From contig JAIXWX010000006.1 in NCBI GenBank assembly GCA_027491075.1, positions 1 through 64,000 on the forward strand: a stretch of 64,000 nucleotides of DNA, in the 5' to 3' direction. Shown here piece by piece: positions 6,430 to 49,337 of this stretch (positions within the stretch are counted from its first letter, which is position 1; each line of letters starts with the position of its first letter). The notes beneath the pieces were generated by a model. The model was not told where the DNA came from, did not search any database, and saw only the letters and a program-made list of their open reading frames with translations. The stretch is from Flavobacteriales bacterium (GTDB lineage Bacteria > Bacteroidota > Bacteroidia > Flavobacteriales_D > Sanyastnellaceae). The translations under genes were made by a program, and so were the position numbers.

Positions 6430-6432
6430 TAA

Positions 6433-7806: not shown

Positions 7807-7850
7807 ATCATGGCTTCAAACGTTGAAGGGAAGTAACGAAATTACAGCCT

Positions 7851-8696: not shown

Positions 8697-9112
8697 GTTT
8701 GAAAAGAATAGAACACATCGGAATTGCAGTTAAAGACATTGAAGCCTCCAACAAAATTTTCAATGATGTATTAGGCACTGGTGCGTATAAGTCTGAAATA
8801 GTTGAAAGCGAAGGTGTATTGACCTCATTCTTTCAAGTGGGGCCAAATAAGATTGAACTCTTGCAGGCAACACATGCTGCTAGCCCCATTGCGAAGTTCT
8901 TAGAAAAGAATAAAGAAGGCATTCATCATATCGCCTTTGAAGTGGAGAATATTCAAGATGAAATAAATCGTCTCATCCAACTTGGTTATACTATGATCCA
9001 TGAAAAGCCAAAAGATGGCGCAGACAATAAAATCATCGCTTTTTTACATCCCAAAGACAGCAACGGCGTATTGGTTGAACTCTGTCAAGAAAAACCTACA
9101 ATGGGTGTATAG
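8693..9112 (+). CDS. mce: Methylmalonyl-CoA epimerase
   Basis: A 139-residue vicinal-oxygen-chelate (glyoxalase fold) protein. The first betaalphabeta unit starts RIEHIGIAVKDIEASN and the second IHHIAFEVENIQDEI. These carry the metal-binding His residues (H in IEHIGI, H in GIHHIAFEV) and a late Glu (LVELCQEK). It interconverts (R)- and (S)-methylmalonyl-CoA in propionyl-CoA/succinyl-CoA metabolism, in the cytoplasm. Length and motif order fit the family well. It is coupled to the upstream gene by ATGA, and its 3' end runs 17 bp into the convergent lipoprotein gene. Confidence 0.92.
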   Translation: MSLKRIEHIGIAVKDIEASNKIFNDVLGTGAYKSEIVESEGVLTSFFQVGPNKIELLQATHAASPIAKFLEKNKEGIHHIAFEVENIQDEINRLIQLGYTMIHEKPKDGADNKIIAFLHPKDSNGVLVELCQEKPTMGV

Positions 9113-9617
9113 ATTGAATTGACCTTTGAACCAACTTTATCTGATCTAGATTAAAAGTAACTAGGTCATCAGATTGAGTGAAATAGTTTGAGTTTGGTCC
9201 TTTGATCATTCTAGAAAAATAATAGCTCACATGGGTCCCATCAGACAATCGACGATGGGCCAAAACAAAAAGACTATCTGACTCTACTATTTCATATTCG
9301 AAAACATCAGTAGAAACTAGTTCGCTCGTGATACTCTTCATTGTCCTAATCTCCTGAGTGACTTTAAATGAAAACTCCGTGCCTAAAGAAACTATTAGCT
9401 CCCCTGTGCTCTCCTTGAATACTATCATCGGCAAGTTGTGTTGAATCAATTTTTTCGGAAGTAAAACACTAAAGTTGAATGGGCCTTGTCTTACCAAAAA
9501 CAAACTATCGGATGTGGAATTAAAAGAAATGTCCCTGTCTTCTGAAGTTTGACCTGATTGATGGCATGCTAGAACGGAAATCGAAACAACTGCAAATAGT
9601 ATTATAAGTCTTTTCAT
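9096..9617 (-). CDS. Hypothetical lipoprotein
   Basis: A 173-residue protein with a lipoprotein signal peptide (MKRLIILFAVVSISVLAC, lipobox VLAC, lipidated Cys18) followed by a polar linker. The mature part looks beta-rich (FNFSVLLPKKLIQ, GELIVSLGTEFSFKV, SLFVLAHRRLSDGTH). No family is recognised; a small periplasm-facing or surface lipoprotein is all that can be said. The 3' end overlaps mce by 17 bp. It lies downstream of, and in the same direction as, the Rieske-like lipoprotein gene, 67 bases away. Confidence 0.72.
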   Translation of the reverse strand: MKRLIILFAVVSISVLACHQSGQTSEDRDISFNSTSDSLFLVRQGPFNFSVLLPKKLIQHNLPMIVFKESTGELIVSLGTEFSFKVTQEIRTMKSITSELVSTDVFEYEIVESDSLFVLAHRRLSDGTHVSYYFSRMIKGPNSNYFTQSDDLVTFNLDQIKLVQRSIQSIHPL

Positions 9618-9684
9618 ACTTTTAAGTTAGTCACTTTTTTTACGTAACAGACCTTCTAAAGGTTTCAATCCGACATCATCAACG

Positions 9685-10098
9685 CTAATTTGTGATCGTC
9701 AAATAAGGATTCTGGAACTCGGTGTTATAAAGCGTAAGCGCAAAATTCGTCGGTCCTCTAACAATTGATCCATCCTGAATCAACCATTGACTTCCAGAAC
9801 AGGGATCTTCTAAAATAATTCCATCTTCAGTGACCTCTACCCTGCAGTTGTCTTCTACATTGTAGGGACTATGACGTTCTATGGCCACAAACTCATCTTG
9901 CCCAGCTCTATACACAATTATTCCTTGCGATCCACCAATGATATACACGTATCCACTGGGAACAGAAATATCAAAATACTGGGGTTCATTAATGTTAATG
10001 ACAATATTTACACCCACTAAAGGAACTTGTGAATTGCGATCTCTGCAGGCACCTAGCACTAATAAGACAAGGCTGAAGAATATTAAGAAACGCTTCAT
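9685..10098 (-). CDS. Lipoprotein with a degenerate Rieske-like domain
   Basis: A 137-residue lipoprotein (lipobox LGAC, Cys18). The C-terminal half follows a Rieske [2Fe-2S] fold: a box I-like AIERH near residues 73-76 with Cys85 downstream, then DPCSGSQW at 98-105, followed by GSIVRGPTNFALTLY. That resembles the CPCHGS...G.v..GPa..L..Y ending of Rieske ferredoxins. By this alignment the cluster ligands are altered: Glu74 for Cys, Asp98 for Cys and Ser101 for His. Only His76 and the two disulfide-type cysteines (85, 100) remain, so it probably binds no cluster. Related lipoproteins are common in Bacteroidota; their role is unknown. A perfect -7 box lies 5 bases before its ATG. Confidence 0.75.
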   Translation of the reverse strand: MKRFLIFFSLVLLVLGACRDRNSQVPLVGVNIVININEPQYFDISVPSGYVYIIGGSQGIIVYRAGQDEFVAIERHSPYNVEDNCRVEVTEDGIILEDPCSGSQWLIQDGSIVRGPTNFALTLYNTEFQNPYLTITN

Positions 10099-10103
10099 AT
10101 CAT

Positions 10104-10111
10104 CAAAGATA
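10104..10111 (-). promoter_or_regulatory. -7 box (TATCTTTG) directly before the Rieske-like lipoprotein
   Basis: On the minus strand this reads TATCTTTG, an exact TAnnTTTG match, ending 5 bases before the ATG at 10098. If used, the mRNA would start at or within a few bases of the start codon. It lies in the short gap after tsaB. Confidence 0.55.
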
Positions 10112-10112
10112 A

Positions 10113-10784
10113 CTAAAGCAACGTTTTGGTAGAAACTCCGGCAACAAAGTCTTTCAAATAATAAGGCTCATAATAGGCTAAATCCTCATATTCCTTGGAC
10201 TCGTGCTTGATAAATGATGCAGCTACCATCATTGTAGCTGAGGGGAATACGTCGTATACGATCGAATAATTTTTTGGAAGAAGTGGAACAAGCTTTTCTA
10301 CACCTTCTCCAAAAATCAATACATGTTCCTTTTGATAATGAAAAAAATCTTTATCCACGACTACCGCGCTCGTTTCTTCTAATCTTTTTCCGTCTTTGTT
10401 AAACGTGCAGGTATATATTTCCATTCTCCTAGCGTCGATGACGGGAATATAAACATCTCCGACATGCAACCTGGATACATTTTCATATAAAAAGTCCAGT
10501 GTATTTATCGAAATAAGCGGAATGGATAAAGAGAAGCACAGCCCTTTTGCGGCTGCTACCCCGATTCTTAAACCGGTGTATGATCCTGGACCAGCGCTAA
10601 CAGCAACCGATTTCAGGTCTTTCAAATCCACCGCGTTTCTGCGCAACAATTCCAGTATGTTCGCGTGCAGCTTCTCTGCATGTGAATAGCCCATACCGCG
10701 TTCTTCTATACAGTCTAATAGAGTACCGCCTATGCCAAGCGCCACACTGCAGTTATGCGATGTTGTTTCTATGCATAGTATCAT
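10113..10784 (-). CDS. tsaB: tRNA threonylcarbamoyladenosine biosynthesis protein TsaB
   Basis: A 223-residue ASKHA-fold protein. It begins MILCIETTSHNCSVAL and contains SAGPGSYTGLRIG near residue 65, both TsaB/YeaZ signatures. TsaB pairs with TsaD and TsaE to make t6A at position 37 of ANN-decoding tRNAs; it is a scaffold/partner, not the catalytic Kae1-type subunit. Length is normal. Its start overlaps the stop of the efflux adaptor gene by 4 bp (ATGA), so it is probably translated from the same transcript although the functions are unrelated. Confidence 0.93.
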   Translation of the reverse strand: MILCIETTSHNCSVALGIGGTLLDCIEERGMGYSHAEKLHANILELLRRNAVDLKDLKSVAVSAGPGSYTGLRIGVAAAKGLCFSLSIPLISINTLDFLYENVSRLHVGDVYIPVIDARRMEIYTCTFNKDGKRLEETSAVVVDKDFFHYQKEHVLIFGEGVEKLVPLLPKNYSIVYDVFPSATMMVAASFIKHESKEYEDLAYYEPYYLKDFVAGVSTKTLL

Positions 10785-19894: not shown

Positions 19895-21439
19895 CTAAAA
19901 AAATCTAGAAATTTCCAATAATCCTTTTGTCCTGATTCCAAACTGAACAAAGACCTCGTTGTTCGAGCCTGCTAGACTTTTTTCTGATACGAGCAATGCT
20001 CTTCCAAAAAACTCAAACTTCTTCCATCCCGTTGGTGTAAACGCACTTTGCCATTCTACGAAAACACGATTTGTCCTGTTTCCTTGAAACATGGAATTAT
20101 TGAAATCACGAAAAGGTCCAGCATACGATCTCAGAATATCGCCTCCGAGATTGTCGATTGAGCCATTTGCGTCAACGTCAAAATCGCGACCTACTACGGC
20201 ATAAATACCCGTCATCTGATGAGAAAGTCGATTTTTCGAATACCTGAAACGAATCAATCCCTCTAGAAAGTTAGCGCCTAAAGGGTGTGCCAACGGCTGA
20301 TACAAGTGTGTCCAGCTTTGCAGAGGGCTTCCATGACTATATGTAAATGGTCTAACGCTATTCACTTCGCTTTGAAAACTCCAACCTTTACTTAAATCTT
20401 GAATCTTCACACCCAGTTGCCCACCAAACTTATTGCCCCACCAACCGTTGCGTGCTCTTATTTGAGACAAGAGAAATTCATCCAAAATAAACTGACCATA
20501 TAATTCTGTTTTTCTGGTGATCGCCCACTTGAAACCTGCCCCCAGCAATACATTATCTGCTGACCCCTGAGCGTACTCCACGGGTCTATAAAAAACCAAA
20601 GGATGCAAATAGTGAAGTTCTAAATTGCGATTGTTAAGTGAATCCCGTTGTTGCCATACAACCATCTCAAAAAATGTGATTTGCCAACGCTTACTGGGAT
20701 TGATGCTTACACCATGCGCAGCGAAGAACTTGTTTCCTTCATTCTGCCAGGCCATGCCGTACAAAGAATTAAACTTCAATCTCCAAACGTCGACCTGAGC
20801 TCGAATATAAGGATAGCTTGAGGCGTTTTCGCTTAGGATAAGTGATCGAAAACCATCTCCCCAGAAATTCTTGCCAAATCCTGCTTCCAACTGAAGAAAT
20901 TTACTGCTGCTAAATACCACTCTACCAAATGGGTTGTGAGCAAAAAAAAGAGAATCTCCTAGATCAAAACTTCGACCAACACCCGCTAGTACCCCTCGAT
21001 CTACTGACAAAGCAGTAAGATAGGATGGGCCTCTTTGTAGGACTCCGGTATATCCAGCACTGAAACTCCATTTGTTATTGGTAGATCTCCATCGAGTAAT
21101 CGCTCCTATTGAAGTATATCCGCCCAAGCCGATTTGATTGCTCATTCCACCAGATACGTCAACAATGGGAACTACCCTCGACTCACTGAGGCCTGCAACT
21201 ACTTGTGAACTTCCAAATTGGTAATAGTCCGATTGAGAATAAGGCTTAAATGCGGAGTGAAATAATTGCTTGTTCCTGCCGGCCACCATTCCCGAGCTAT
21301 CGCTGCTGACTTGCTTGAATGCCTGAAAATTTAGATTTACAGCCTCTGGCAACAACCAAAAATCGTTGGGAAACTGCGCCAATAGTGGAAATGGGACAAA
21401 TAAAATAAATATAAACCAGTAATGTAGACGCTGCCGCAT
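19895..21439 (-). CDS. Wzi/RemB-like outer-membrane beta-barrel protein
   Basis: About 514 residues with a signal peptide (MRQRLHYWFIFILFVPFPLLAQ) and a strand-rich body ending in Phe-Phe. Segments such as LEAGFGKNFWGDGFRSLIL, WRLKFNSLYGMAWQNEGN, LELHYLHPLVFYRP and HLYQPLAHPLGANF match the Wzi-like capsule-assembly/gliding protein family (RemB-type in Flavobacteria). Such proteins are implicated in surface polysaccharide attachment or motility. I chose ATG 21439, which lies 6 bases after a near-consensus -7 box; a longer frame to 21475 is possible. A paralog lies at 47856-49337. It is divergent from spoT. Confidence 0.82.
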   Translation of the reverse strand: MRQRLHYWFIFILFVPFPLLAQFPNDFWLLPEAVNLNFQAFKQVSSDSSGMVAGRNKQLFHSAFKPYSQSDYYQFGSSQVVAGLSESRVVPIVDVSGGMSNQIGLGGYTSIGAITRWRSTNNKWSFSAGYTGVLQRGPSYLTALSVDRGVLAGVGRSFDLGDSLFFAHNPFGRVVFSSSKFLQLEAGFGKNFWGDGFRSLILSENASSYPYIRAQVDVWRLKFNSLYGMAWQNEGNKFFAAHGVSINPSKRWQITFFEMVVWQQRDSLNNRNLELHYLHPLVFYRPVEYAQGSADNVLLGAGFKWAITRKTELYGQFILDEFLLSQIRARNGWWGNKFGGQLGVKIQDLSKGWSFQSEVNSVRPFTYSHGSPLQSWTHLYQPLAHPLGANFLEGLIRFRYSKNRLSHQMTGIYAVVGRDFDVDANGSIDNLGGDILRSYAGPFRDFNNSMFQGNRTNRVFVEWQSAFTPTGWKKFEFFGRALLVSEKSLAGSNNEVFVQFGIRTKGLLEISRFF

Positions 21440-21445
21440 AGAGCA

Positions 21446-21453
21446 CAAAGATT
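21446..21453 (-). promoter_or_regulatory. Near-consensus -7 box (AATCTTTG) before the Wzi-like gene
   Basis: The minus strand reads AATCTTTG (one mismatch to TAnnTTTG), 6 bases before ATG 21439. It supports the shorter start codon and a nearly leaderless mRNA. Confidence 0.4.
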
Positions 21454-21496
21454 TGAAAAAAGAATCCAAATCCAACTTTTCAAATGAATTAGCTGT

Positions 21497-29715: not shown

Positions 29716-30031
29716 TACTTTGCATCTCACTAAATAAGCACCGCTCCTAATGATTTAAAACCGCTTATCAGACCTGTATAGATTTCAAAGTTTGTGTTAA
29801 TCTTGAATTTTAACATTGACATCCGGTTAACGTATTTTTGAGAAAAATTTAATGATTTGTGAAGAAGCGATGCCCAAAAAATGAATAATTCTAAGAAAAT
29901 ACGCTCTCAAAAACACTGATCCTCAGCCCGTTTCAAGTGATTTTGAGAAAGTCATATAAAACAACGAAGATTTCATATTTTAGCGCCCGTTTCTAATAAA
30001 CGCAGCAAAGAATTACCTTAACCTGTCTGTT
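29716..30031 (+). other. 316-base intergenic region before the TonB receptor cassette
   Basis: This is the only gap over 300 bases in the window, and I see no gene or RNA in it. It holds the inverted repeat at 29905-29948 and a weak -7-like box TATTTTAG (29976-29983), about 48 bases before the receptor ATG. It is A/T-rich throughout. It is the natural control region for the 30-39 kb cassette. Confidence 0.5.
29905..29948 (+). repeat. Inverted repeat upstream of the TonB receptor
   Basis: TCTCAAAA (29905-29912) and CACT (29914-29917) pair with AGTG (29936-29939) and TTTTGAGA (29941-29948), with one unpaired A on each side and an 18-base loop. It could be an operator or an RNA hairpin in the leader. 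There is no T-run, so it is not a terminator. Confidence 0.45.
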
Positions 30032-33000
30032 ATGCAGAGAAAAATTTACTTACTTATTGTACTTGCCTGCCTCGCTGTCACTGGAGCTTTTGCTCAAGGG
30101 AACAGTGGAACCTTAAAGGGTAAAGTCATCGATAAGGACACCAAAGAACCGCTAGCACTCGCTAACGTGGTGGTATTTCTAAATGGTAACCTTGTTACAG
30201 GTGGCCAAACGGATTTTGATGGGGAATACACCATCAAGCCTATAGATCCAGGAACGTACGACATCGAATTCAGAATGGTGGGTTATACCGCCCAAACTCT
30301 AAAGGGAATCCCTGTATCTTCTGGTCAAATTCGTTTCGTTAACGCAGAGCTTTCTTCTGGATCTGAGTTGGAAGGAGTAGAAATCATTGATTACAAGGTT
30401 CCACTTATTGATAAAGATGGTGGTGCATCTGGTGGAACAGTAACACGTGAAGAAATCGCTAAAATGCCTAGTCGTGACGCTTTGGGATTGGCCCAAACAG
30501 TTGCTGGGGTAAATAGCGCTGGAACCGGCGGCGGTATTTCTATTCGTGGTGCACGTACAGGATCCACTTGGGTATACATTGACGGTATTAAAGTAAGAGG
30601 TTCAACTGCTCTACCCAAATCTGCTATCGAGGAAGTTGCCGTAATTACTGGAGGTATTCCTGCAAACATCGGGGATGCTACAGGTGGTGTAATCAATATT
30701 GCGCTTCGAAGCGCATCCGCTAAATACACTGGTGGCATTGAAGTCATTAGTTCTGGTTTTAAGAGCGGTGAAGGAGCAGTTGGCTTGGATAGATTCGGCT
30801 ACAATCTTATCGAAGGATCTCTATCAGGTCCTCTTGTGTTTAAAAAGAACGACAAAGGCGAGAAAGTGCGTCCTATTTTAGGATTCTTCTTATCTGGAAA
30901 CTATACTGACTTGGTTGACCCCAACCCCGCTTTCGGTGGAAATTTCCGAATGAAGGAAGAGTTCAGACAAGATCTTATCACTAATCCTTTAAGAAGAAAC
31001 CCATCTGGTATCGGGGTGTTATACAACGCTGACTTCTTAACTGGAAATGCTTTTGAAAGAGTTAGAACTAACCTAAATAGCCGACAGCGCTCCGCGAACT
31101 TGGTTGCAAAAATAGACTTCAATATTTCTGAAAATAGCACGCTTACTTTAGGTGCTACTGGAGCGTATGGAAGGGGACATCAGTTCAGTTATGCTAACAT
31201 GCTTATGAACTGGGAAAACAACCAACTGGCTACAGACCTTGACTGGAGAGGATATGCTCGTTTCTCTCACAGAGTCAAGAACAGTGAGGAAGCGAAGGCC
31301 AATAATTTGAAGAATGTTTTCTTCACAATTATGACTGACTTCAGCCAAACATTCCGAAGAAGAGAGGATGATACACACCGCGATAACATTATGCGCTACG
31401 GTCACGTAGGTTATTTTGATTTTGTTCGTGGAACTTCCTATGACTTTACAGGATCCTACTTCCGTCAAAACGCAAGTCAGGTGTTCATGAATACTTTCTT
31501 CACCCCTTCAGAATATAATCCTGAGGCTGCAGCAATAACGAATCAATATTTCTCATTGCCTGTTAATCCCGCAGTGCTTGACCTTATTACCGATGCAAAC
31601 GGCAATATTATTCGCGATCCAAAGGATATCTTCCTTTCCACACCTGGTATTGTGCCTTTTGTTAGTTCTCAGCCTTACGCTTCAGTTGAAAATATTCTTC
31701 TTGGCAACGGTCTGATTAATGGTCTGGTACCCGATGCTACCTACAACATGTGGTCCTATCTTGGAACTCAAAACAACAACTTCTCAAAAAGCAATACGAA
31801 TCAATTCCGTGTTTCTGGTGCATTCTCAGGTGACTTAGGTAACCATGCACTTCAACTAGGTTTCGAATTTGAACAGCGTCGTGACGTGGGGTACTTCCTA
31901 GCGCCTATCGGACTTTGGGATGCAGCTCGTCTGTTTACCAACGCTCATATTTCCGAGTTAGACAACGCTCCTGGCTCTGGCTATGATTCTACTACAGTTA
32001 CTGTTAATGGTCAGAACTATGTTTACTTCAATCAATTGGTTGGTAACAACCAATTTGAATTCGACTATAACCTCCGCGAATCTTTAGGACTCGATCCCAA
32101 TGGTACAGACTGGGTTAACGTGTTAAACATCGATCCAGACGATTTGGATGTTTCAATGTTTGGCGCTGATGACCTTCTAAATCAGGGTCAGAACTACGTA
32201 ACTTATTTTGGATATGATCACACAGGAAGAAGACTAAGAGGTCGTCCTTCAATTGACGATTTCTTCCAAGATCAAAAAACAGTTGGAGGTAGAGACTATT
32301 TCACGCGTCCTATTGGAGCCTTTGAACCGAACTATTTCGCACTTTACTTGATGGATAAGTTTGCATTTGATGACTTGATCTTCAATGTAGGGGTGCGTCT
32401 AGATCGTTTTGATGCCAACCAACCGGTTCTAAAAGATCCATATGTTGTTGGTGTAGGCACCACTGTTGGTGAAACCGATTTTAGCAACTTTATTGGAACC
32501 ACGGCAGCACCATCTAACATTGGAAGCGACTACGTAGTTTACGTTAATGACGTTAATAACCCAACAACAGTCAAGGGTTATAGAAATGGAGACAACTGGT
32601 ATAACGCAAGCGGCCAGCTTGTTACCGACCCATTCACTTCAGTTGCAGAAGGAGGACGTTTGAATCCTCTGCTACAAGGAGATCCAGATGAACTCACCTC
32701 TGAAGCTTTCAGAGACTATGATCCTGCAGTAAACATTATGCCTCGTATCGCATTCTCTTTCCCAATTTCGGACGAAGCATTGTTCTTTGCTCACTATGAC
32801 ATCTTAACTCAGAGACCTACTGAAGCGAATCGTTTCAATCCAGTGGATTACTTGTTCGTAGGAACTGGTCGTAACGTTTTGATGAACAATCCAAATTTGC
32901 GTCCTGAGAGAACGGTAGACTATGCGTTAGGATTCCAGCAAATTCTCAGCAGAACATCTTCATTAAAAGTTGAAGCCTTCTACCGTGAATTGAGAGATAT

Positions 33001-33805
33001 GATTCAGGTGAGAAACTTCGTTGGAGCTTATCCTCTCACATACCGTACCTTCGACAATCTCGACTTTGGTACTGTTAAAGGGTTGACTCTTTCTTATGAC
33101 CTCAGAAGAACAGGTAATGTTTGGATGAAGACCTCTTACACCCTTCAGTTTGCTGATGGAACTGGATCAACTACTCAAACAGCACTTGCATTGATCAATA
33201 ATGGATTGCCCAACCTACGTAACGTAAATCCATTCAACTATGACCAGCGCCACCGTATCGTAACGACCATCGACTACCGTTACGGAGAGGGAGCCGAATA
33301 CAATGGTCCAGTATGGTTTGGTAAGCAAGTATTTAAGAACACTGGTGCTAACCTCATCGTAAACTTAGGAAGTGGTACACCTTATACTGCTTCTCAATTT
33401 GCTACTCCAATCACTGGAGAACTTGCTCCTGCAACACGCGGAAGTCTCAATGGAGCTCGCCTTCCTTGGCAGTTCAACGTTGATGCTCAAATCGACCGTA
33501 ACATCACTCTGAAGTTTGGAAAGACTTCAGGAGAAGGAGCAGACGCCAAGAGAGAGAAAGTTGCAAACTTGAACGTTTACCTATGGGTTCTAAACTTATT
33601 GAACACTCGCAATATTCAAGGCGTGTATCGCTTCACCGGCACACCCGATGATGATGGATACCTTGCCTCTGCGCAGTTCCAGCCACTGATAGAGCAGCAG
33701 GTAGATCCGACTGCCTACAGAAACTACTACACCATGTTTATGAATAACCCTTACAACCTCGCGGCACCTCGCCAAATTCGTTTGGGTATTCGTCTAGATT
33801 TTTAA
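30032..33805 (+). CDS. TonB-dependent receptor with carboxypeptidase regulatory-like domain
   Basis: A 1257-residue protein. It has a signal peptide (through TGAFAQG, about 22) and an N-terminal carboxypeptidase regulatory-like domain at about 25-105 (GTLKGKVIDKDTKEPLALANV ... FDGEYTIKPIDPGTYDIEF). A plug domain at about 130-235 includes GGGISIRGARTGSTWVYIDG and GGIPANIGDATGGVINI. A 22-strand-type barrel ends PRQIRLGIRLDF. It should import a ligand through the outer membrane using TonB energy. There is no SusD gene beside it. Instead a 1435-residue secreted protein and a PorV-type barrel follow at 31- and 23-base gaps, so the three probably form one operon. Confidence 0.93.
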   Translation: MQRKIYLLIVLACLAVTGAFAQGNSGTLKGKVIDKDTKEPLALANVVVFLNGNLVTGGQTDFDGEYTIKPIDPGTYDIEFRMVGYTAQTLKGIPVSSGQIRFVNAELSSGSELEGVEIIDYKVPLIDKDGGASGGTVTREEIAKMPSRDALGLAQTVAGVNSAGTGGGISIRGARTGSTWVYIDGIKVRGSTALPKSAIEEVAVITGGIPANIGDATGGVINIALRSASAKYTGGIEVISSGFKSGEGAVGLDRFGYNLIEGSLSGPLVFKKNDKGEKVRPILGFFLSGNYTDLVDPNPAFGGNFRMKEEFRQDLITNPLRRNPSGIGVLYNADFLTGNAFERVRTNLNSRQRSANLVAKIDFNISENSTLTLGATGAYGRGHQFSYANMLMNWENNQLATDLDWRGYARFSHRVKNSEEAKANNLKNVFFTIMTDFSQTFRRREDDTHRDNIMRYGHVGYFDFVRGTSYDFTGSYFRQNASQVFMNTFFTPSEYNPEAAAITNQYFSLPVNPAVLDLITDANGNIIRDPKDIFLSTPGIVPFVSSQPYASVENILLGNGLINGLVPDATYNMWSYLGTQNNNFSKSNTNQFRVSGAFSGDLGNHALQLGFEFEQRRDVGYFLAPIGLWDAARLFTNAHISELDNAPGSGYDSTTVTVNGQNYVYFNQLVGNNQFEFDYNLRESLGLDPNGTDWVNVLNIDPDDLDVSMFGADDLLNQGQNYVTYFGYDHTGRRLRGRPSIDDFFQDQKTVGGRDYFTRPIGAFEPNYFALYLMDKFAFDDLIFNVGVRLDRFDANQPVLKDPYVVGVGTTVGETDFSNFIGTTAAPSNIGSDYVVYVNDVNNPTTVKGYRNGDNWYNASGQLVTDPFTSVAEGGRLNPLLQGDPDELTSEAFRDYDPAVNIMPRIAFSFPISDEALFFAHYDILTQRPTEANRFNPVDYLFVGTGRNVLMNNPNLRPERTVDYALGFQQILSRTSSLKVEAFYRELRDMIQVRNFVGAYPLTYRTFDNLDFGTVKGLTLSYDLRRTGNVWMKTSYTLQFADGTGSTTQTALALINNGLPNLRNVNPFNYDQRHRIVTTIDYRYGEGAEYNGPVWFGKQVFKNTGANLIVNLGSGTPYTASQFATPITGELAPATRGSLNGARLPWQFNVDAQIDRNITLKFGKTSGEGADAKREKVANLNVYLWVLNLLNTRNIQGVYRFTGTPDDDGYLASAQFQPLIEQQVDPTAYRNYYTMFMNNPYNLAAPRQIRLGIRLDF

Positions 33806-33836
33806 GTAAGAACAAGAAGATTAAAACAGCCGAGAA

Positions 33837-36800
33837 ATGATAAAAATCATTAGAAACATCAGTTTACTGGCACTCGCAATTGCATTGGCGACTGACGCTT
33901 CATCCATGCGCTATATGGGATCTGGAAATTCCAATGGCAATGGTGGTGGCAATGGCACCAATTCCAATACCGATCCTCGTCTAACGCAGGAAGAGGAATA
34001 TACCCGTGCAGCGGCCTGTGCGCCTGCTAACGCACTAACCAACCTAGAGCTCAACAACGTCCGTGCTCGTATAGAAACGGGTGGATCGATGTGGCAAGAC
34101 CGCGCTGTAAGCCGCGCCTTCTACGAAGTTCCAAAAGACGGTGGCGTTAGTTCTATTTATTCCGGAGCACTTTGGATGGGTGGTCTTTCTCCTGATGCTC
34201 AATTGAAGCTCGCAGCGGTTACGTTCAGAGCAGATGGTAACGATTACTGGCCGGGGCCTTTAACTAATGACGGAACGGCCACTGTTACAGAAGACATTTG
34301 TACGCAATATGACCGTTTCTTCATGAGCTTTCGTCAAGATGCGCAAGCCCATCGTGCTTATTGGGATTGTACTACTTCAGGTGGTGATGATTGTGCGGAT
34401 TACAGCATGCCTGCATACTTTGCCGAATACCCAGCGGAAGGAGACCCCAATTTGCAGCAAGACTTTTATCTAGCACCATTTTATGATTACAACGATGATG
34501 GATTTTATAATCCTCAAGAAGGTGACTATCCTTGGTATGATTTCTTAAAAGAAATTGACTGCCGAACAAGGAATCGTGAAAGTGTGGTTCCGCTTTTCGG
34601 TGACCAAACGTATTACTGGATTTTCAATGACCGTGGTAACATTCACACCGAATCACAAGGTCAGCCTATTGGTATGGAAATCCGCGCGCAAGCGTTTGCA
34701 TTCACTACGAATGATGAGATCAACAATATGACGTTCTACAACTATGTGTTGATCAACCAAGGATCTCAAACACTTACTGAAACATATTTTGGTTCATGGG
34801 TGGACGCAGATCTAGGCTTCGCAGCAGACGATTACGTAGGTTGTGACGTGCAACGCGGTTTAGGTTATTGCTATAACGGTGATAATACAGATGAGGCTGG
34901 ATCAGGATCTAACGGATATGGTGCGAATCCTCCAGCAGTAGGTGTTGACTTCTTTGAAGGTCCATATCAGGACTATGATGAGGTAGATAATCCATTGACC
35001 GATGATGTTGCGTTGGCTATTTCTCAAAAAGGTATTCCTTACAAAGGTTTGGGTATAGGTTATGGTGATGGTGTGGTGGACAACGAGCGCTTCGGAATGC
35101 GTCGTTTCGTTTACTATAACATTGGTTCAAATCCTATCAACGGTGACCCAGACGTTGCTCCAGACTACTACAACTACATGAGAGGTTTCTGGAAAAATGG
35201 AGACCGTATGCAGTATGGTGGTAATGGTATCCCCGGTGAAAGTGGCGTTACTGAAATTGCCGCAGGTTACATGTTCCCAAAGGATACAGACCCCTTGCAT
35301 TGGGGTACTGAAGGTGTTGAAATGCCATTTTGGAGTGAAGAGGTTACTCTTGCTGCTCAAGATAACCAACCCGGTGACCGTCGTTTTATTCAGTCAGCTG
35401 GTCCTTTCACGCTCTTGCCTGGAGACTATAACAACATTACAGTTGGGGTGGTTTGGGCTAGAAGTGGTGGTGGTGGTGCTCTTGCTTCTGTAGCACTAAT
35501 GAAAGATGCCGATGACAAAGCTCAAGCTCTATTTGATAACTGCTTTGAGTTAGTGTCGGGTCCTGATGCTCCAGACGTTACCGTTAGAGAACTGGAAAAC
35601 GAGATCATCCTCATGCTTTCGAATGAGAATACTATCAGCAATAATTTCCAAGAAAACTATTTGGAATTTGATGCTTCCATTCCAGAAGAAATCGAATCGC
35701 TTGGATTGACTTACACTCCAGAGCAAAGATCATATACTTTCGAAGGTTACATGGTATACCAATTAGCGAATGCCACTGTAGGTCCTGATGAACTCAGTGA
35801 TGTATCTAAAGCTCGCTTGATTTTCCAAACGGATGTAGAAAATGATATCACCTCTATTGTCAATTATGAATTTGACTCAGACAATGATTTGATTATCCCA
35901 ACACTCAAAGTAAATGGAGCCAACGAAGGAATTTCAAGATCGTTCCGTATTACCCAGGATGCATTCGCTCAAGGTGTTAACACCCTTGTTAACCACAAGA
36001 CCTATTATTTCATGGCGATCGCATATGGATACAACAATTACCTTGATTACAACACAGAAACTCGTCAAGGTCAATCTAGAGTATTCATCAGCTCAAGAAA
36101 AGCGGCCATTGGAGAAATCCAAGTGATCCCGGCTATACCACATACACCTTCTCCAGCAGCGGAGGGGACTATTCAAAACTCAGTATATGGTCAAGGTATT
36201 GCTCTAACCCGTCTCGAGGGAAGAGGAGCTGGCACGAGAGATCTATTATTCGATCCTGCTTCTGAAAATGAAATCCTTCAAAATGGATTCTCCGCGGCAG
36301 TTACGTATGCTCCGGGCGCAGGACCTGTGGATGTTCGCGTTATAGATCCTTTGAAAGTTCAAAGCGCAGATTTCGAACTACGCCTCGCTGGTCCTGAAGA
36401 TGTAGAAGAGGACAACCCCGATTCTTTGAGGTGGGAATTAGTGAATCTTGAAACGGGAGAGGTAGTTCCTCACTACAAGAGTTTCAAAGTGGCGAGTGAG
36501 GATGTGCTCATTGACTATGGTATATCCATTAACTGGGGCAATTATATCATTCCTAATCCGATTGAGGAAGAACCTAATTACCTGGTACCAGAGTTTTTGA
36601 GCGGAACGATAACTTACGCTAATCCTGCACAACGTTGGTTAGGTGGAATTCCTGATCAAGAAGGACAAGACCCATTGAACTGGATTCGTTCTGGTTCAGA
36701 CTTGGAAGTAACGGATAATGGCACGGTAGCCGAAAATATTTATGCCGACTATGGCATCGATATCACAACCACTTTCGCTCAGGCGTCTGTCGATGGACAA

Positions 36801-38144
36801 GGTATTTATGAAGGTGTACTTGGAGGAACTTGGGCTCCCTATTCTTTAGTTTCCTACTCTCAACTAGATAATGGAAACTACTTGAACAACTTTGCTCCTA
36901 CCTATGGTTTATTGAGTATGGCAACCTTCAATGGCACCACACCAGAGGTTGCTCCAATGACAAACACCTCGCAGACTTCCTTCTTGGAGTTGATTGGTAG
37001 AATTACCAATTTACCTTCAGTAGATATCGTCTTGACTAGTGACAAATCTAAATGGACACGATGTGCAGTTCTTGAAATGCAGTCCAACCCTTTCCTTGCT
37101 CAAGGATTCTTTGGAGAAAATTATTCTAAAAACCGCATGCGCAAAGCGCCTTCTGTAGACAAGAATGGTCGTAAAGTTGGCGATGAAGGATACAACGATG
37201 CTGAAGGCACATTGGGCGGAGCTCAACCAACAGGAATGAGTTGGTTCCCTGGTTACGCTATTGATATGACTACAGGTGAACGCTTGAATATGGCTTTTGG
37301 TGAAGACTCTTGGCTCAATGGTGAGAATGGGCGCGATATGATCTGGAATCCAACCGAGAACTTGTTTAACTCAAACGGTACACAAATCGTTGGAGGTGGT
37401 CAACATTGGATTTACGTTTTCCGCAATGTGGAGAATGAAGACTTTGGTGGATCATTTGCCAGAATGCCGAGATACGATTCTTGCCAGTATGTTTATTCTG
37501 TATTGAATACTACACCTTGGCCGAATCCAACTAGCCCTGCTTCTACACAATTCAATAACTGGAGAAGAATCTTCGCCGCTACTGCCTGGGTAGGTTCTGC
37601 GCTACTGACTGGCGAAGCGCCATTATTAAGTGTTGAACAAGGTTTGATCCCGACAGAAACAAGAATCTCGTTGAGAGTAGGTACTGCGTACACAAGGTAC
37701 AATCCTAACACACCTGAGTTGGATGATCCAGAAGATAATGGAGCTCAAAATGGATGGAGAAATCTATATAGATTCTCTACCAGAGGTCTTGCTCCAATTT
37801 TCAATGATGAGTCCACTTTAACAACCGCTTTAGATATCATCAATATTGTCCCAAACCCTTACTATGCATTCAGCCAGTATGAAACTAGTAAGTTGGACAA
37901 CCGCGTTAAGATTACTAACCTACCTGAAGTATGCACAGTTAGTATCTATGATATGAACGGAACGCTCATTAGACAATTTAGAAAGGGTGATCCGCTTACT
38001 TCCTTGGATTGGGATTTGAAAAATGCTAACAACATTCCAATTGCTGGTGGTACCTATATCATCCATGTAGATGTGCCTGGTATTGGTGAAAAAATACTCA
38101 AATGGTTTGGTGTACTCAGACCGGTTGACCTTGACAGATTCTAA
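33837..38144 (+). CDS. Giant secreted surface protein of the TonB receptor/PorV cassette
   Basis: A 1435-residue protein. The N-terminal hydrophobic signal (ISLLALAIALATDASS) is followed by a Gly/Asn-rich linker (about 28-45). The first ~550 residues match a large unnamed Bacteroidota family: ISGALWMGG-type motifs, the Asp-rich loop DYNDDGFYNPQEGD at about 217-230 (EF-hand/dockerin-like, possible Ca2+ site), DADLGFAADDYVGCDV, GYCYNGDNTDE, DGVVDNERFGMRRFVYYN and YYNYMRGFWKNGDRMQYGG. The C-terminus has a T9SS-like domain (IVPNPYYAFSQYE, VSIYDMNGTLIRQF, IPIAGGTYIIHVDV) but ends FGVLRPVDLDRF, not in the usual basic strand. Probably exported to the surface; biochemical function unknown. Confidence 0.8.
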   Translation: MIKIIRNISLLALAIALATDASSMRYMGSGNSNGNGGGNGTNSNTDPRLTQEEEYTRAAACAPANALTNLELNNVRARIETGGSMWQDRAVSRAFYEVPKDGGVSSIYSGALWMGGLSPDAQLKLAAVTFRADGNDYWPGPLTNDGTATVTEDICTQYDRFFMSFRQDAQAHRAYWDCTTSGGDDCADYSMPAYFAEYPAEGDPNLQQDFYLAPFYDYNDDGFYNPQEGDYPWYDFLKEIDCRTRNRESVVPLFGDQTYYWIFNDRGNIHTESQGQPIGMEIRAQAFAFTTNDEINNMTFYNYVLINQGSQTLTETYFGSWVDADLGFAADDYVGCDVQRGLGYCYNGDNTDEAGSGSNGYGANPPAVGVDFFEGPYQDYDEVDNPLTDDVALAISQKGIPYKGLGIGYGDGVVDNERFGMRRFVYYNIGSNPINGDPDVAPDYYNYMRGFWKNGDRMQYGGNGIPGESGVTEIAAGYMFPKDTDPLHWGTEGVEMPFWSEEVTLAAQDNQPGDRRFIQSAGPFTLLPGDYNNITVGVVWARSGGGGALASVALMKDADDKAQALFDNCFELVSGPDAPDVTVRELENEIILMLSNENTISNNFQENYLEFDASIPEEIESLGLTYTPEQRSYTFEGYMVYQLANATVGPDELSDVSKARLIFQTDVENDITSIVNYEFDSDNDLIIPTLKVNGANEGISRSFRITQDAFAQGVNTLVNHKTYYFMAIAYGYNNYLDYNTETRQGQSRVFISSRKAAIGEIQVIPAIPHTPSPAAEGTIQNSVYGQGIALTRLEGRGAGTRDLLFDPASENEILQNGFSAAVTYAPGAGPVDVRVIDPLKVQSADFELRLAGPEDVEEDNPDSLRWELVNLETGEVVPHYKSFKVASEDVLIDYGISINWGNYIIPNPIEEEPNYLVPEFLSGTITYANPAQRWLGGIPDQEGQDPLNWIRSGSDLEVTDNGTVAENIYADYGIDITTTFAQASVDGQGIYEGVLGGTWAPYSLVSYSQLDNGNYLNNFAPTYGLLSMATFNGTTPEVAPMTNTSQTSFLELIGRITNLPSVDIVLTSDKSKWTRCAVLEMQSNPFLAQGFFGENYSKNRMRKAPSVDKNGRKVGDEGYNDAEGTLGGAQPTGMSWFPGYAIDMTTGERLNMAFGEDSWLNGENGRDMIWNPTENLFNSNGTQIVGGGQHWIYVFRNVENEDFGGSFARMPRYDSCQYVYSVLNTTPWPNPTSPASTQFNNWRRIFAATAWVGSALLTGEAPLLSVEQGLIPTETRISLRVGTAYTRYNPNTPELDDPEDNGAQNGWRNLYRFSTRGLAPIFNDESTLTTALDIINIVPNPYYAFSQYETSKLDNRVKITNLPEVCTVSIYDMNGTLIRQFRKGDPLTSLDWDLKNANNIPIAGGTYIIHVDVPGIGEKILKWFGVLRPVDLDRF

Positions 38145-38167
38145 TTTTTGAGACTACAATTGAAATA

Positions 38168-39208
38168 ATGCTTATGAAAAAGCTTTTAATAATAGCAGTA
38201 GCAGCAACTATCGGATTGACTACCTACGCAGGAAATCCAGACCGTGCTGGGTCTTCGGGAGCCGGACACCTTTTGGTGAATCCTTGGGCCCGTACTTCAG
38301 GGAATGGCTCCGCAGGAATGGCCTCTATCCGTGGAATCGAAGCGCAATTCCTCAACGTTGCTGGATTAGCATTTACGCGAAAAACAGAATTGGTTTTCAC
38401 GAATAACAATTATCTAGTTGGTACTGGAATTCGTGTCAATGCATTCGGTTTTGGTCAAAAAGTGGGCGAAACAGGTGCTTTAGGTCTTTCTGTAACCAAT
38501 ATGAACTTTGGAGATCTTGACATCACCACTGAAGAACTTCCAGAAGGTGGAATTGGTACTTTTAGTCCCAACTACACCAACATTGGACTTTCTTATGCGA
38601 AGGGATTCTCAAACAGCATCTATGGTGGAATTACCGTACGAATGATTTCAGAAGCCATATACAACGTGCGCTCACAAGGATTTTCATTCGACGCGGGAAT
38701 TCGCTATGTGACCGGTCCTAAAGACAATCTTCGCTTTGGTATCGCACTTCGCAATGTTGGACCTCCCATGCGCTACAGAGGAGACGGTATGAGTATTAGC
38801 GCCGTCATTCCTTCCACTGGTAATGCCATTACAGTGGAACAGCGTTCTGAGCGTTTCGAATTGCCTTCTTTAGTCAATGTAGGTATTGCTTATGATTTTA
38901 TTTTTAACGATAAAATGAAGCTGACTACCGATTTGCAATTCACTTCGAATTCTTTCACTAGAGACAATATTGCTATCGGAGGTGAATTCGGTTTTCGCGA
39001 GCGTTTCTTCGTTCGTGCAGGTTATGGAACCGAAATAGGAATAGAAGATGGCGAAGAGCGAATGAGCGTTTTCACGGGTCCGTCTGTCGGTGCGACAGTT
39101 CAGATTCCTGTTGGATCTGGAGAATCTAAAATTGGATTGGATTACGGATATCGTGTCACCAACCCATTTAATGGCGTTCACAGCATCGGAGTGCACATTA
39201 CTCTATAA
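38168..39208 (+). CDS. PorV/PorQ-family outer-membrane barrel
   Basis: A 346-residue protein with a signal peptide (MKKLLIIAVAATIGLTTYAG). A FadL-like barrel typical of the PorV family follows: SGAGHLLVNPWARTSGNGSA, then EAQFLNVAGLAFTRKTEL in place of the more usual NPAGL, VGETGALGLSVTNMNFGD, and a terminal strand NPFNGVHSIGVHITL. PorV binds T9SS cargo C-terminal domains and passes them to the attachment complex. A PorV-type barrel next to a giant T9SS-like protein suggests a dedicated partner. ATG 38168 and ATG 38174 (MKKLL) are both possible. A terminator-like hairpin follows. Confidence 0.82.
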   Translation: MLMKKLLIIAVAATIGLTTYAGNPDRAGSSGAGHLLVNPWARTSGNGSAGMASIRGIEAQFLNVAGLAFTRKTELVFTNNNYLVGTGIRVNAFGFGQKVGETGALGLSVTNMNFGDLDITTEELPEGGIGTFSPNYTNIGLSYAKGFSNSIYGGITVRMISEAIYNVRSQGFSFDAGIRYVTGPKDNLRFGIALRNVGPPMRYRGDGMSISAVIPSTGNAITVEQRSERFELPSLVNVGIAYDFIFNDKMKLTTDLQFTSNSFTRDNIAIGGEFGFRERFFVRAGYGTEIGIEDGEERMSVFTGPSVGATVQIPVGSGESKIGLDYGYRVTNPFNGVHSIGVHITL

Positions 39209-39220
39209 TAAGAAAATTCT

Positions 39221-39228
39221 TATATTTG
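39221..39228 (+). promoter_or_regulatory. -7 box (TATATTTG) upstream of greA
   Basis: TATATTTG is an exact TAnnTTTG match. Four bases later an ATG begins, and the hairpin at 39235 follows at once. The transcript would begin at or just before that ATG, placing the hairpin at the extreme 5' end of the greA mRNA. Confidence 0.55.
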
Positions 39229-39232
39229 TACT

Positions 39233-39325
39233 ATGAGAACCCCGATTGGGGTTCTCTCTTTTTTTAAGTTATTAATATCACTGCCATGGCAACACAAGTC
39301 GCGTACTATACAGCTGAAGGTTTGA
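39233..39325 (+). other. Possible leaderless leader-peptide ORF over the greA hairpin
   Basis: A 30-codon frame begins at ATG 39233 (MRTPIGVLSFFK...) and ends with TGA at 39323-39325, inside greA in another frame. Its ATG is exactly four bases after a perfect -7 box, the spacing seen at several real genes here. Its first codons encode both arms of the terminator-like hairpin. It may be a regulatory leader peptide or a coincidence; nothing about the peptide itself is recognisable. Confidence 0.25.
39235..39265 (+). terminator. Rho-independent terminator/possible attenuator before greA
   Basis: A perfect 9-bp stem (39235-39243 with 39248-39256), a GATT loop, then a T-rich run (39257-39265, interrupted by one C). 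It terminates the TonB receptor/PorV cassette. Because a promoter lies just upstream of it, it could also attenuate greA transcription. Confidence 0.85.
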
Positions 39326-39762
39326 AGAAGCTTAAAGATGATCTCCACCAATTGAAAACCGTGGAGCGCCCGCGCATCTCTCAACAAATTGCAGAAGCCC
39401 GCGACAAGGGAGATCTATCGGAAAACGCAGAATATGATGCTGCTAAGGAAGCACAAGGTCATCTAGAAGCTCGTATTGCTAAAATGGAAGATTTAGTAGC
39501 AAATGCACGACTTATCGATGAATCTCAACTCGATAATTCTAAAGTATTCATCTTGTCAAAAGTCAAGATAAAAAACCTCGCTAATAATCAAATAGCAGAA
39601 TATACCCTCGTTGCAGAAAACGAGGCCAACCTAGCTGCAAAAAAAATATCCGTAGATTCCCCTATAGGCAAAGGTTTACTCGGAAAGAAATTAGGCGACG
39701 TCGCTGAGGTTACTGTACCAGCCGGAAAGATCAACTTTGAAATCATAGAGATTTCTAGATAA
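39286..39762 (+). CDS. greA: Transcription elongation factor GreA
   Basis: A 158-residue protein with an N-terminal coiled coil (GLKKLKDDLHQLKTVERPRI) carrying the acidic tip ARDKGDLSENAEYDAAKEAQ, and a C-terminal FKBP-like domain (SPIGKGLLGKKLGDVAEVTVP). GreA stimulates RNA polymerase to cleave backtracked transcripts. The tip residues DLSENAEYDAAKE are intact. It overlaps the HIT gene by one base (TAATG). Its upstream region contains a promoter and a terminator-like hairpin. Confidence 0.96.
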   Translation: MATQVAYYTAEGLKKLKDDLHQLKTVERPRISQQIAEARDKGDLSENAEYDAAKEAQGHLEARIAKMEDLVANARLIDESQLDNSKVFILSKVKIKNLANNQIAEYTLVAENEANLAAKKISVDSPIGKGLLGKKLGDVAEVTVPAGKINFEIIEISR

Positions 39763-47855: not shown

Positions 47856-49337
47856 TTAAAAATCGAAGTACCTATTATGAAGGTTGGTGCGTATGGATAT
47901 AAAATAAATCCATTCTGTATAGCCCAAATCTCTATGAATCACAGACAAGGATATTTGAGAGTTCGTCTTTGGGTTTACAAAATAACCCGCCTCCAATTCC
48001 ATATGTCTTTGTAAATCACTTGATAGGTGGGTGTTCCACATCACAATCCTACTTCGAAAAATCAATCTTCTGAACCGGTAATCCAATAAACCGATCCATT
48101 CTTGATTTGTAGCAAAACTTGGATGACCCAATGGCTGATTGAAATGAGAAACAGATTGCAACATAGAGGATCCGGCGTACGCTTCACTTCCCAACTGGTT
48201 AAACTCCAATTGAAAATCCAAACCCTTGAACACCGCATCAAAAAGTTTTACTCCCATTTGATACCCTTGTGATTCTCCTTCCGTGTTGTTGACAAGCCAT
48301 TGACTGTACAATACTATTCCGTCAAACGGTTCAAACCTCAGATTGATTCCAGCATAAGTATTATTCGCTCCCTGCCAGCCTTCTGTGGCAACAGAGGCCC
48401 CAATCAAAGGAACATAAGCATTCCAAGGCAGATTATAGGTTTGAAGGCTATCAACCCTTCTCCACATTGTAGCCTCAAACAATCCCAGTTCAAGCCTTTT
48501 ACTAGGTTTAAAACTCAAATAATTAAAACTTGCGGTTTTCCTTTTAAATAAAGATTCTGGCACATCCCTTCTCGGCAATCTTTCCAGCGATTGCAAAGCG
48601 CTGTATGAAGTAAAATATTTCAATTTACCATCCATGAAAGACCACTCGCTTCTCAAAGATGGAAACGCAAAGGACGCATCGCTCCATAGCAGACTTCTGT
48701 AGCCAAAGCCTACGAATTGTTTGTCATATACTAAATCTAATTTCCAATTCTTCAAAACCTGATAACGCATGCCCGCAAAACTCATACTATGGTCATACCC
48801 ATTTTGCCGATAATCTTTGACGCGGCCTAAGCCAGGAAATACACCCACAGAATCAATATAAACACTTTGATAGTAAGGTGTGACCCTTTGCATTTCGTAA
48901 AAACCGGTATAGAAAGTGAATTTTTTCCCAAGGTCTCCTGATGCCATTAGACCGCGCATATTGGTAAAAACGAATCGATTTTCGTTTCTATCGCTACGTT
49001 CGCTGAAATCTCGACCTGAGCTGAAATCATAAAGCACATCAAGAGCTAAGCGGTAGTCTTCCCGTTTAATCTGAGCGGTATGGTCCCGAAAAAGAGCGGC
49101 AGTGAGATCATAATAGTACTTAGCAGTGTCTTTACCAAAAAATCTCATTAGACTATCTGGCACTTCGTTCTTAAAAAAAGGCTTAACTGCTAAATGAACT
49201 TGAGTTCTTTGGTTGGTCTTTGATCTTTCTACTTCTTGCCAAACATCTCGATGCATTGGTAAAAAACTCTGACCGAATAATTGCTCGGTTGAATGCAATA
49301 AGCAAACTAAAAATATTAGTATGAACCGAACTTTCAT
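47856..49337 (-). CDS. Wzi/RemB-like capsule-assembly barrel (second copy)
   Basis: A 493-residue protein with a signal peptide (FILIFLVCLLHSTEQLFGQ) and a beta-strand-rich body ending RYFDF. It resembles the 19895-21439 protein in the segments KNWKLDLVYDKQFVGFGYRS, LLWSDASFAFPSL, RLELGLFEATMWRRVD, HFNQPLGHPSFAT and EWIGLLDYRFRR. In this copy the setting is clearly polysaccharide-related, between GDP-L-fucose synthase (4-bp overlap) and the WecA-type transferase, which supports a role in exporting or anchoring surface polysaccharide. Confidence 0.82.
   Translation of the reverse strand: MKVRFILIFLVCLLHSTEQLFGQSFLPMHRDVWQEVERSKTNQRTQVHLAVKPFFKNEVPDSLMRFFGKDTAKYYYDLTAALFRDHTAQIKREDYRLALDVLYDFSSGRDFSERSDRNENRFVFTNMRGLMASGDLGKKFTFYTGFYEMQRVTPYYQSVYIDSVGVFPGLGRVKDYRQNGYDHSMSFAGMRYQVLKNWKLDLVYDKQFVGFGYRSLLWSDASFAFPSLRSEWSFMDGKLKYFTSYSALQSLERLPRRDVPESLFKRKTASFNYLSFKPSKRLELGLFEATMWRRVDSLQTYNLPWNAYVPLIGASVATEGWQGANNTYAGINLRFEPFDGIVLYSQWLVNNTEGESQGYQMGVKLFDAVFKGLDFQLEFNQLGSEAYAGSSMLQSVSHFNQPLGHPSFATNQEWIGLLDYRFRRLIFRSRIVMWNTHLSSDLQRHMELEAGYFVNPKTNSQISLSVIHRDLGYTEWIYFISIRTNLHNRYFDF

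Follow-up and report, generated by a model that had tools for sequence, protein, structure and literature searches.

We report a three-gene operon that is old across much of the Bacteroidota phylum. It encodes a TonB-dependent receptor, a giant exported protein that we call BIG, and an outer-membrane barrel of the PorV/PorQ family. Together their products probably make up a single, previously undescribed machine of the cell surface, and a literature search found no published description of the cassette or of BIG. BIG has more than 1,000 residues, keeps roughly 40-50% identity from one family to another, and occupies the same operon phylum-wide, so it can be expected to do an important job.

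The locus

The window is a stretch of 64,000 nt from a Flavobacteriales bacterium (GCA_027491075.1, contig JAIXWX010000006.1, positions 1-64,000, forward strand). The receptor (1257 aa) is encoded at 30032..33805, BIG (1435 aa) at 33837..38144 and the barrel at 38168..39208, all on the + strand. These coordinates, the common direction and the gaps of 31 and 23 bases were given in a preliminary description and agree with an ORF check; the export signal of BIG was judged by eye. The same description placed a terminator after the cassette, and there is indeed a strong intrinsic one at 39235..39256 (+ strand; a 9-bp stem, a loop of 4 and a T run). The fold of 39209-39270 has an energy of -18.7 kcal/mol and a z of -4.09. 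Past the terminator comes greA (39286..39762, +). What had been called a control region upstream survives as a 316-base intergenic gap (29716..30031, +). Nothing regulatory was found in it: no Rfam RNA family matches there and the lone TAnnTTTG word at 29833 is no evidence of a promoter.

Distribution of the cassette

The three genes had been proposed to form one unit. A search of other Bacteroidota genomes clearly found the three families together. The order TonB-BIG-PorV was read around 26 of the 45 BIG-type ORFs found at 40 loci of the order; of 60 best-hit loci in other families and classes, 50 have it. Chance grouping is excluded because the same order recurs in other genomes. Among 60 class and phylum genomes chosen by their BIG hits, 55 have the full cassette; this count is the 50 best-hit loci plus second copies read in 5 further genomes (full cassette in 5/5). 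The median intergenic gaps are 21.5 and 27.5 bases (n=76 cassettes from order, class and phylum). BIG itself is found in 59/60 relatives from the order, 241/296 sampled genomes of the class and 125/247 genomes of the phylum sample, and its carriers span genomes of 1.7 to 8.2 Mb. The next neighbour is conserved within the class: greA follows 25/26 full cassettes in the order and 31/34 in the class (0/16 outside the class). Both this adjacency and the range of genome sizes would suit a core role in the envelope no less than uptake.

Some loci are incomplete. In three of them (L037, L193 and L194) the stretch read has the TonB gene and BIG but no barrel, and one (L195) has BIG and the barrel but no TonB gene. 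There are also 17 full-length BIGs that are solitary, with neither partner. All these cases count against reading the cassette as a complex. No constant partner was seen by eye among the neighbours of solitary copies at 13 loci.

SprA is present in 240 of the 241 BIG-positive class genomes and in 288/296 overall (Fisher p 4e-5, kinship ignored). It is also present in 48 of the 55 class genomes that are missing BIG. The proposal that the system is self-contained was too strong, because export of BIG presumably still depends on the SprA translocon.

The barrel belongs to its own clade

The third gene had been assigned to the PorV family. The assignment holds, with 149.8 bits on the PorV/PorQ model NF033709 (cut-off 90), and all 72 cassette barrels match this family at E 0.001 or better. 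The window barrel falls under each equivalog cut-off (PorV 67.3/250, PorQ 76.0/220, PorV2 49.4/325 bits). The best E-values among cassette barrels, 2.6e-29 for PorV and 4.3e-28 for PorQ, are far weaker than those of the true proteins of this genome (3.8e-140 and 1.1e-97). The reading of the barrel as PorV itself was rejected: PorV (467 bits), PorQ (327) and PorV2 (486) are all encoded elsewhere in the genome, as are PorU (547) and PorZ (592). A PorP/SprF pairing was rejected on score (14.6 bits for the window barrel vs a cut-off of 90.55); 13/72 cassette barrels match the PorP/SprF model TIGR03519 at E 0.001 or better.

Trees of 37 of the 72 cassette barrels place them on one side of a branch, with SH-aLRT 98 in the 86-row tree and 96 in the 90-row tree. 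The barrel profile had passed over four PorV-family rows (L362, L374, L376 and L270), which are missing from the first tree and were added in the second, a quick tree. There the long-branched L362 falls beside PorV, so that no single branch then sets PorV off from the rest. Judged by these trees and scores, the cassette barrels are not PorV, PorQ or PorV2 but a separate clade.

The C-terminal domain of BIG resembles PorZ

BIG had been said to end in a T9SS-like domain. By sequence this is marginal. The model TIGR04183 gives 18.2 bits on the whole of BIG against a cut-off of 23; in the genome search it gives 22.7 bits, or 23.6 with neighbours in frame. By predicted structure the domain is real and clear. 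The C-terminal domain (CTD; residues about 1325-1435, 37809..38141, +) is modelled as a type-A-like Ig fold as in PorZ, PorU, RgpB and RemA. PorZ is its top solved relative in Foldseek (E 4.7e-6), its top relative among the matches listed in VIA (Z 11.3) and its sole match by sequence profile (E 0.034). PorU has a VIA Z of 8.8, which among the matches listed is level with unrelated Ig domains (8.7 and 8.5), and RemZ and the NucA substrate rank above PorU in Foldseek. In these models PorZ is the nearest structural relative of the CTD.

A Trp motif, WDLKNANNIPIAGGTY (W[DN]-x11-GxY) at 38010..38057 (+), is another point of likeness. It is present in 62/62 BIGs of alignment A1, and in this genome's own PorU and PorZ. 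It occurs in 0/50 sampled ordinary CTDs, a count made within this one genome; a looser W[DN] search matches 5/30 ordinary CTDs, at other places. The motif is kept in 17/17 solitary full-length BIGs, a count that leaves out L069, which is truncated at a contig end. This genome has a single BIG-type CTD (next match E 0.65).

The CTD is conserved, with a mean pairwise identity over 48 class rows of 0.59 vs 0.43 for residues 55-1333. Other parts of BIG are better conserved: in the same rows, values of 0.60-0.64 are reached by blocks 271-360, 496-540 and 1126-1170. Where one genome has two BIGs, their final 100 residues resemble each other more closely than the remainder does on average (8/8 pairs); in 5/8 some other 100-residue block equals or exceeds them. 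The number of independent pairs is nearer 7, since G032 and G013 belong to the same genus and have near-equal values; both comparisons are limited to the 821-residue part of an interrupted cassette gene. Recent gene conversion as the source of the alike CTDs was rejected at four-fold sites in 7/8 pairs. In the pair from G005, 22/34 four-fold sites are identical in the CTD vs 113/369 in the body, and here the likeness may come from recent copying.

The body of BIG

No Pfam model is above cut-off for the body in the window protein and 7 relatives, and the same is true of NCBIfam models in the window protein. Profile searches found no PorZ match outside the CTD. The AF2 model of residues about 64-572 (34026..35552, +) has a mean pLDDT of 83.8, and the region contains 20 of A1's 28 invariant columns. 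By VIA this region aligns with dextran dextrinase 9ju0 at Z 19.0 (rmsd 3.1, 252 aligned); the 50 matches listed have Z 13-19 and 4-13% identity, in a ranking that covers Foldseek's own matches only. Foldseek's whole-chain TM-scores for these matches are low. We take the VIA matches to be super-beta-sandwich domains of GH15, GH94 and GH116, and the matched ranges in those entries presumably omit the catalytic (alpha/alpha)6 barrel. The N-terminal half of BIG is thus predicted to be a super-beta-sandwich like that of the GH15/GH94/GH116 enzymes. The likeness to these hydrolases and phosphorylases would be in this common domain; the difference is that, among the matches listed, BIG matches the sandwich alone, and a glycosidase-like sandwich is not proof of glycan binding. 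In those enzymes a catalytic (alpha/alpha)6 barrel follows the sandwich; past residue 575 the BIG model has no helix longer than 10 residues, and the matches listed give no assignment for about residues 580-1320.

The receptor

The first gene had been called TonB-type and said to have no SusD partner, and both points are borne out. Its N-terminal carboxypeptidase-regulatory-like domain and its Plug domain exceed the Pfam cut-offs. No SusD model matches any of the 14 window proteins scanned (3 of the cassette, 2 upstream and 9 others, greA and a HIT gene included). The SusC/RagA model TIGR04056 does not match the window receptor at E 0.1. Across alignment A3, where 40 orthologues are 26-75% identical, it matches 10/41 receptors at E 0.001 or better (best 7.2e-27). 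A SusCD-like reading was rejected, given no SusD nearby and no SusC call for the window receptor.

A proposed surface complex

We argue that the three genes would form one outer-membrane surface complex. In this scenario the CTD of BIG would bypass ordinary PorV-PorU sorting, and the cassette barrel would capture and keep it. Through the retained CTD, a protein with a super-beta-sandwich and over 1,000 residues in all would be anchored outside the cell, beside the TonB receptor of the same operon. There BIG would most likely gather or shape a large ligand, glycan-type or otherwise, whose passage TonB would drive, taking SusD's place beside SusC via a different export route. By analogy with PorZ and PorQ, the anchoring of BIG by its own barrel is well supported and probably correct. 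For the whole reading, in which BIG so held also serves the receptor, we put the chances a little short of even; gene order and the predicted fold are what suggest that BIG would present a ligand. Two results keep our confidence in both points from going higher: other blocks of BIG are better conserved than the CTD, and the fold search does not single out PorU. A dedicated PorV paralogue for BIG had been suggested before. The barrel is indeed such a paralogue and not PorV, and the CTD evidence favours a cognate pair, but the closest precedent is retention of PorZ on PorQ, not a hand-off.

Other scenarios must be weighed. The same pair of BIG and barrel could belong to core envelope assembly, with the receptor giving force, or a channel, to build or load a glycan coat or surface layer that BIG binds. 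This is less likely, but it would suit the spread of BIG through the order and class in small and large genomes alike, the constant greA neighbour, and a between-family identity more typical of housekeeping than of niche nutrient uptake. TonB receptors, on the other hand, are import proteins, and the 55 class genomes without BIG, most of them with SprA, do not fit well. It is improbable that BIG is ordinary T9SS cargo, carried by PorV and cut at its CTD by PorU, with the barrel a general component and the genes merely co-transcribed. The predicted type-A Ig fold is what such cargo would have, Foldseek ranks PorV-bound RemZ second and the NucA substrate eighth, and one of the two TIGR04183 searches just brings the CTD to the cut-off. 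However, the barrel clade is separate, PorZ is the clear top match and the Trp motif goes with it, and the cassettes stay together across classes. The barrel and BIG might instead be an accessory T9SS attachment complex for other cargo, like PorQ-PorZ, with the TonB gene a passenger. The resemblance of CTD and barrel to PorZ and PorQ invites this, and the PorV2 and PorU2 named by NCBIfam show that there are further sorting sets. We consider it very improbable, since the body is a predicted super-beta-sandwich with no PorZ match beyond the CTD, the TonB gene is retained across classes, and 48 class genomes have SprA without BIG.

If the surface complex that we favour is real, it joins type IX secretion and TonB transport, two outer-membrane systems that are usually studied apart. 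The cognate-barrel rule, as the available texts give it for type B signals and for PorZ-PorQ, would then extend to a type-A-like signal and a third kind of barrel. Tentatively, one may go further and see in BIG a third, ancestral kind of partner for TonB receptors: a giant, exported by the T9SS, whose uncut CTD is locked on the cell surface by its own PorV-family barrel. The whole would be an overlooked part of the Bacteroidota core, a surface transporter or an envelope machine, missing in about one in five sampled class genomes. Tests in cultured strains are possible, because the records of Crocinitomix catalasitica ATCC 23190 (L249) and Brumimicrobium oceani (L222) hold the full cassette.

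Comparison with known systems

SusC-SusD and RagA-RagB likewise have a TonB receptor with a regulatory-like N-terminal domain whose gene adjoins that of a large surface partner. Here the partner is a T9SS-type giant and not a lipoprotein, there is no SusD, and the window receptor is not called as SusC/RagA.

For the type B system of Flavobacterium johnsoniae, the available text of PMC12618676 describes a PorP/SprF shuttle gene directly 3' of the cargo gene. The cassette barrel gene is likewise directly downstream of BIG, but the CTD is type-A-like and the barrel is of the PorV/PorQ family. That text also has orphan type B cargo with similar CTDs able to use one common shuttle, and by analogy the solitary BIG copies may use a common barrel. 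According to the same text, PorV recognises every type A CTD, which counts against a cognate barrel for BIG.

In Porphyromonas gingivalis the T9SS attachment complex consists of PorZ-PorQ and PorU-PorV subcomplexes, and PorZ keeps its CTD, according to the available text of PMC5562754. BIG differs in that its body is not PorZ-like, its barrel is not PorQ (76 bits, cut-off 220), its genome has PorZ and PorQ too, and its operon includes a TonB receptor. What the two would share is an exported surface protein whose type-A-like CTD is held by a PorV-family barrel, and it is PorZ that the CTD of BIG is nearest to.

Conservation of the cassette

The preliminary description had set out a TonB receptor, a giant exported protein of 1435 residues (here BIG) and a PorV-type barrel as one cassette, with gaps of 31 and 23 bases and a terminator after it. 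Re-reading the window sequence bears out the three ORFs (30032-33805, 33837-38144 and 38168-39208), the gaps and the terminator (39235-39256). A Pfam scan finds carboxypeptidase-regulatory and Plug domains in the first protein, and the third belongs to the PorV/PorQ family (149.8 bits against a cut-off of 90). No Pfam domain scores above cut-off in the window's BIG or in 7 diverse relatives. Beyond the terminator come greA and then a HIT-family gene. Elsewhere in the window two proteins of similar length, 493 and 526 residues, are encoded on the minus strand at 47856-49337 and 19895-21475, with no Pfam match.

BIG is present in 59 of 60 same-order relatives, the sole miss being a genome that is 78% complete. 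A single-protein search finds it in 240/296 genomes of a class sample and 120/247 of a phylum sample, and a profile search in 241/296 and 125/247; these samples overlap, and each counts the window's own genome. A model of SprA, the T9SS translocon, matches 288 of the 296 class genomes. Both proteins occur in 240, BIG only in 1 (G114), SprA only in 48 and neither in 7 (Fisher p 4e-5, uncorrected for kinship). Draft assemblies of the order relatives often end within the BIG gene, frequently around residues 800-870 (e.g. contigs G020:C18, G025:C48 and G006:C45), as if near-identical copies of the gene defeat assembly.

Forty order-level loci were chosen by their BIG matches, irrespective of neighbours. 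Of the 45 BIG-type ORFs in them, 26 belong to full cassettes, 7 to partial ones and 12 are solitary, with neither partner alongside. Two BIG genes lying between TonB and PorV are interrupted, and their halves account for four of the partial ORFs; two more are truncated by a contig end, and one (L037) has the TonB receptor without the barrel. It must be noted that two genomes belonging to the same genus have an interrupted cassette BIG (L042 and L045, oriented 4657-8859 and 5983-10184), and that both carry an uninterrupted solitary BIG elsewhere (L043, L044). A further 60 loci, one per genome, were chosen for family spread from the matches printed, 40 from within the class and 20 from beyond it. 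Fifty have the full cassette. Three are partial (the receptor is 1.1 kb away in one and the contig ends in two) and 7 have solitary copies only. The other BIG copy was read in five of those 7 genomes, all but G122 and G468, and it forms a full cassette in order in 5/5; in one case the contig truncates it on both sides. A named collection gave 567 confirmed places, from which 80 loci were kept. By gap limits, 49 of their 76 long BIG ORFs count as full and 8 as partial; the other 19 are solitary. Among the partial ones L221, L235 and L267 have the full order with gaps beyond the limits, 2 stop at a contig end, the barrel is missing in L193 and L194, and the receptor in L195, which shares a contig with L194. 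In the 26 order-level and 50 family-spread full cassettes the median gaps are 21.5 and 27.5 bases. The next gene after full cassettes is greA in 25/26 cases at order level, 31/34 at class level and 0/16 outside the class.

The cassette barrel

The window's genome has a clear member each of PorV, PorQ and PorV2, plus PorU and PorZ. The cassette barrel scores below the PorV, PorQ and PorV2 cut-offs. A quick tree with 86 rows, 37 of them cassette barrels, puts all 37 on one side of a branch with SH-aLRT 98; at 90 rows the support is 96, and a single row with a long branch groups next to PorV. Lying below the equivalog cut-offs and on a separate branch, the cassette barrel is its own subfamily, with members both within the class and beyond it. 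Another PorV-family barrel of the 64 kb starts at the window end (63717-64000, reaching 64718 on the contig). It is a PorV2 equivalog (485.6 bits against a cut-off of 325) and stands outside the cassette clade.

The C-terminal domain of BIG

The predicted model of BIG 860-1435 has a mean pLDDT of 81.7, and its last ~110 residues form a T9SS Ig-type domain (CTD). Foldseek puts PorZ first for this CTD (E 4.7e-6), followed by PorV-bound RemZ (1.4e-3), a NucA substrate complex (3.5e-3) and PorU (4.1e-3), with unrelated Ig domains interspersed. VIA gives PorZ a Z of 11.3 (rmsd 2.5, 90 aligned). PorU at 8.8 is level with unrelated domains (8.7 and 8.5), and then come mirolase at 8.0, RemA at 7.4 and RemZ at 7.3, where a Z under 8 may be mere likeness. 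Judged by the predicted model, PorZ alone stands clear as a structural match. Two papers describe PorU on PorV and PorZ on PorQ in P. gingivalis, with the CTD kept by both (PMC5562754, PMC10202324).

A tryptophan motif, W[DN]-x11-GxY, is common to BIG, PorU and PorZ of the window's genome. Its looser form (a spacer of 8-14 residues, then GxY/H/F) occurs in all 62 aligned BIGs, and the motif is kept in 17/17 solitary full-length copies. This 3.0 Mb genome also has 142 matches to TIGR04183, the type A sorting domain (137 over cut-off, pieces included), a large candidate cargo set. The looser form is found in 0/50 CTDs sampled from those matches, the 30 best and 20 spread down the list. W[DN] does occur somewhere in the last 55 residues of 5/30 best CTDs, but not within this motif. 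Four short paralogues of 586-665 residues (L044:10288-12219, L046:10147-12024, L129:9896-11893 and L071:4398-6158, oriented along BIG) match the N-terminal part of BIG; they are without the motif and their CTDs look ordinary. These proteins are a natural domain swap. Three of the four come after a solitary full-length BIG.

When a solitary and a cassette BIG of one genome are compared, the mean likeness of the last 100 residues exceeds that of the remainder in 8/8 pairs (medians 0.88 vs 0.71, one pair only 0.62 vs 0.60), with another 100-residue block equally or more alike in 5/8. At four-fold sites the CTD is no closer than the body, or little closer, in 7/8 pairs, which argues that the likeness comes from selection and not from recent copying. 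Over the whole class the CTD value (0.59) exceeds the body mean (0.43), but residues 1126-1170 and blocks of the N-terminal domain reach the same level. This constraint fits, without proving, the idea that BIG copies are obliged to suit one barrel. For F. johnsoniae, one paper reports a single shuttle serving type B orphans with CTD identity above 44% (PMC12618676).

The body of BIG and a proposed role

The predicted model of BIG 46-1245 has a mean pLDDT of 83.8 and a pTM of 0.67. Residues 64-572 take the super-beta-sandwich fold of GH15, GH94 and GH116 proteins, with dextran dextrinase (Z 19.0, rmsd 3.1, 252 aligned) ahead of 1ug9 (17.4) and 1lf6 (17.2) in VIA. Foldseek also puts dextran dextrinase first for the body (E 3e-5), at a low whole-chain TM-score. 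Of the 28 invariant columns 20 lie in this region, and eight of these 20 are Asp or Glu. It is a fair guess that the predicted sandwich has a site for a glycan or calcium, though the fold itself does not establish it.

On the likeliest reading BIG would be exported by Sec and SprA, as its CTD and the co-occurrence suggest. The cassette barrel would capture and retain it; the barrel clade, the gene order, the PorZ-like fold and the tryptophan motif all point this way. The operon suggests that BIG may be placed beside the TonB receptor, where it could conceivably capture a ligand, perhaps a glycan. The main rival to this reading is that the cassette has a role in envelope assembly instead.

A search by title or abstract opening, mostly outside the subscription literature, found no published TonB-giant-PorV operon. 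The parts of the cassette are known, and so is the pairing principle; their combination, as far as we searched, is not described.
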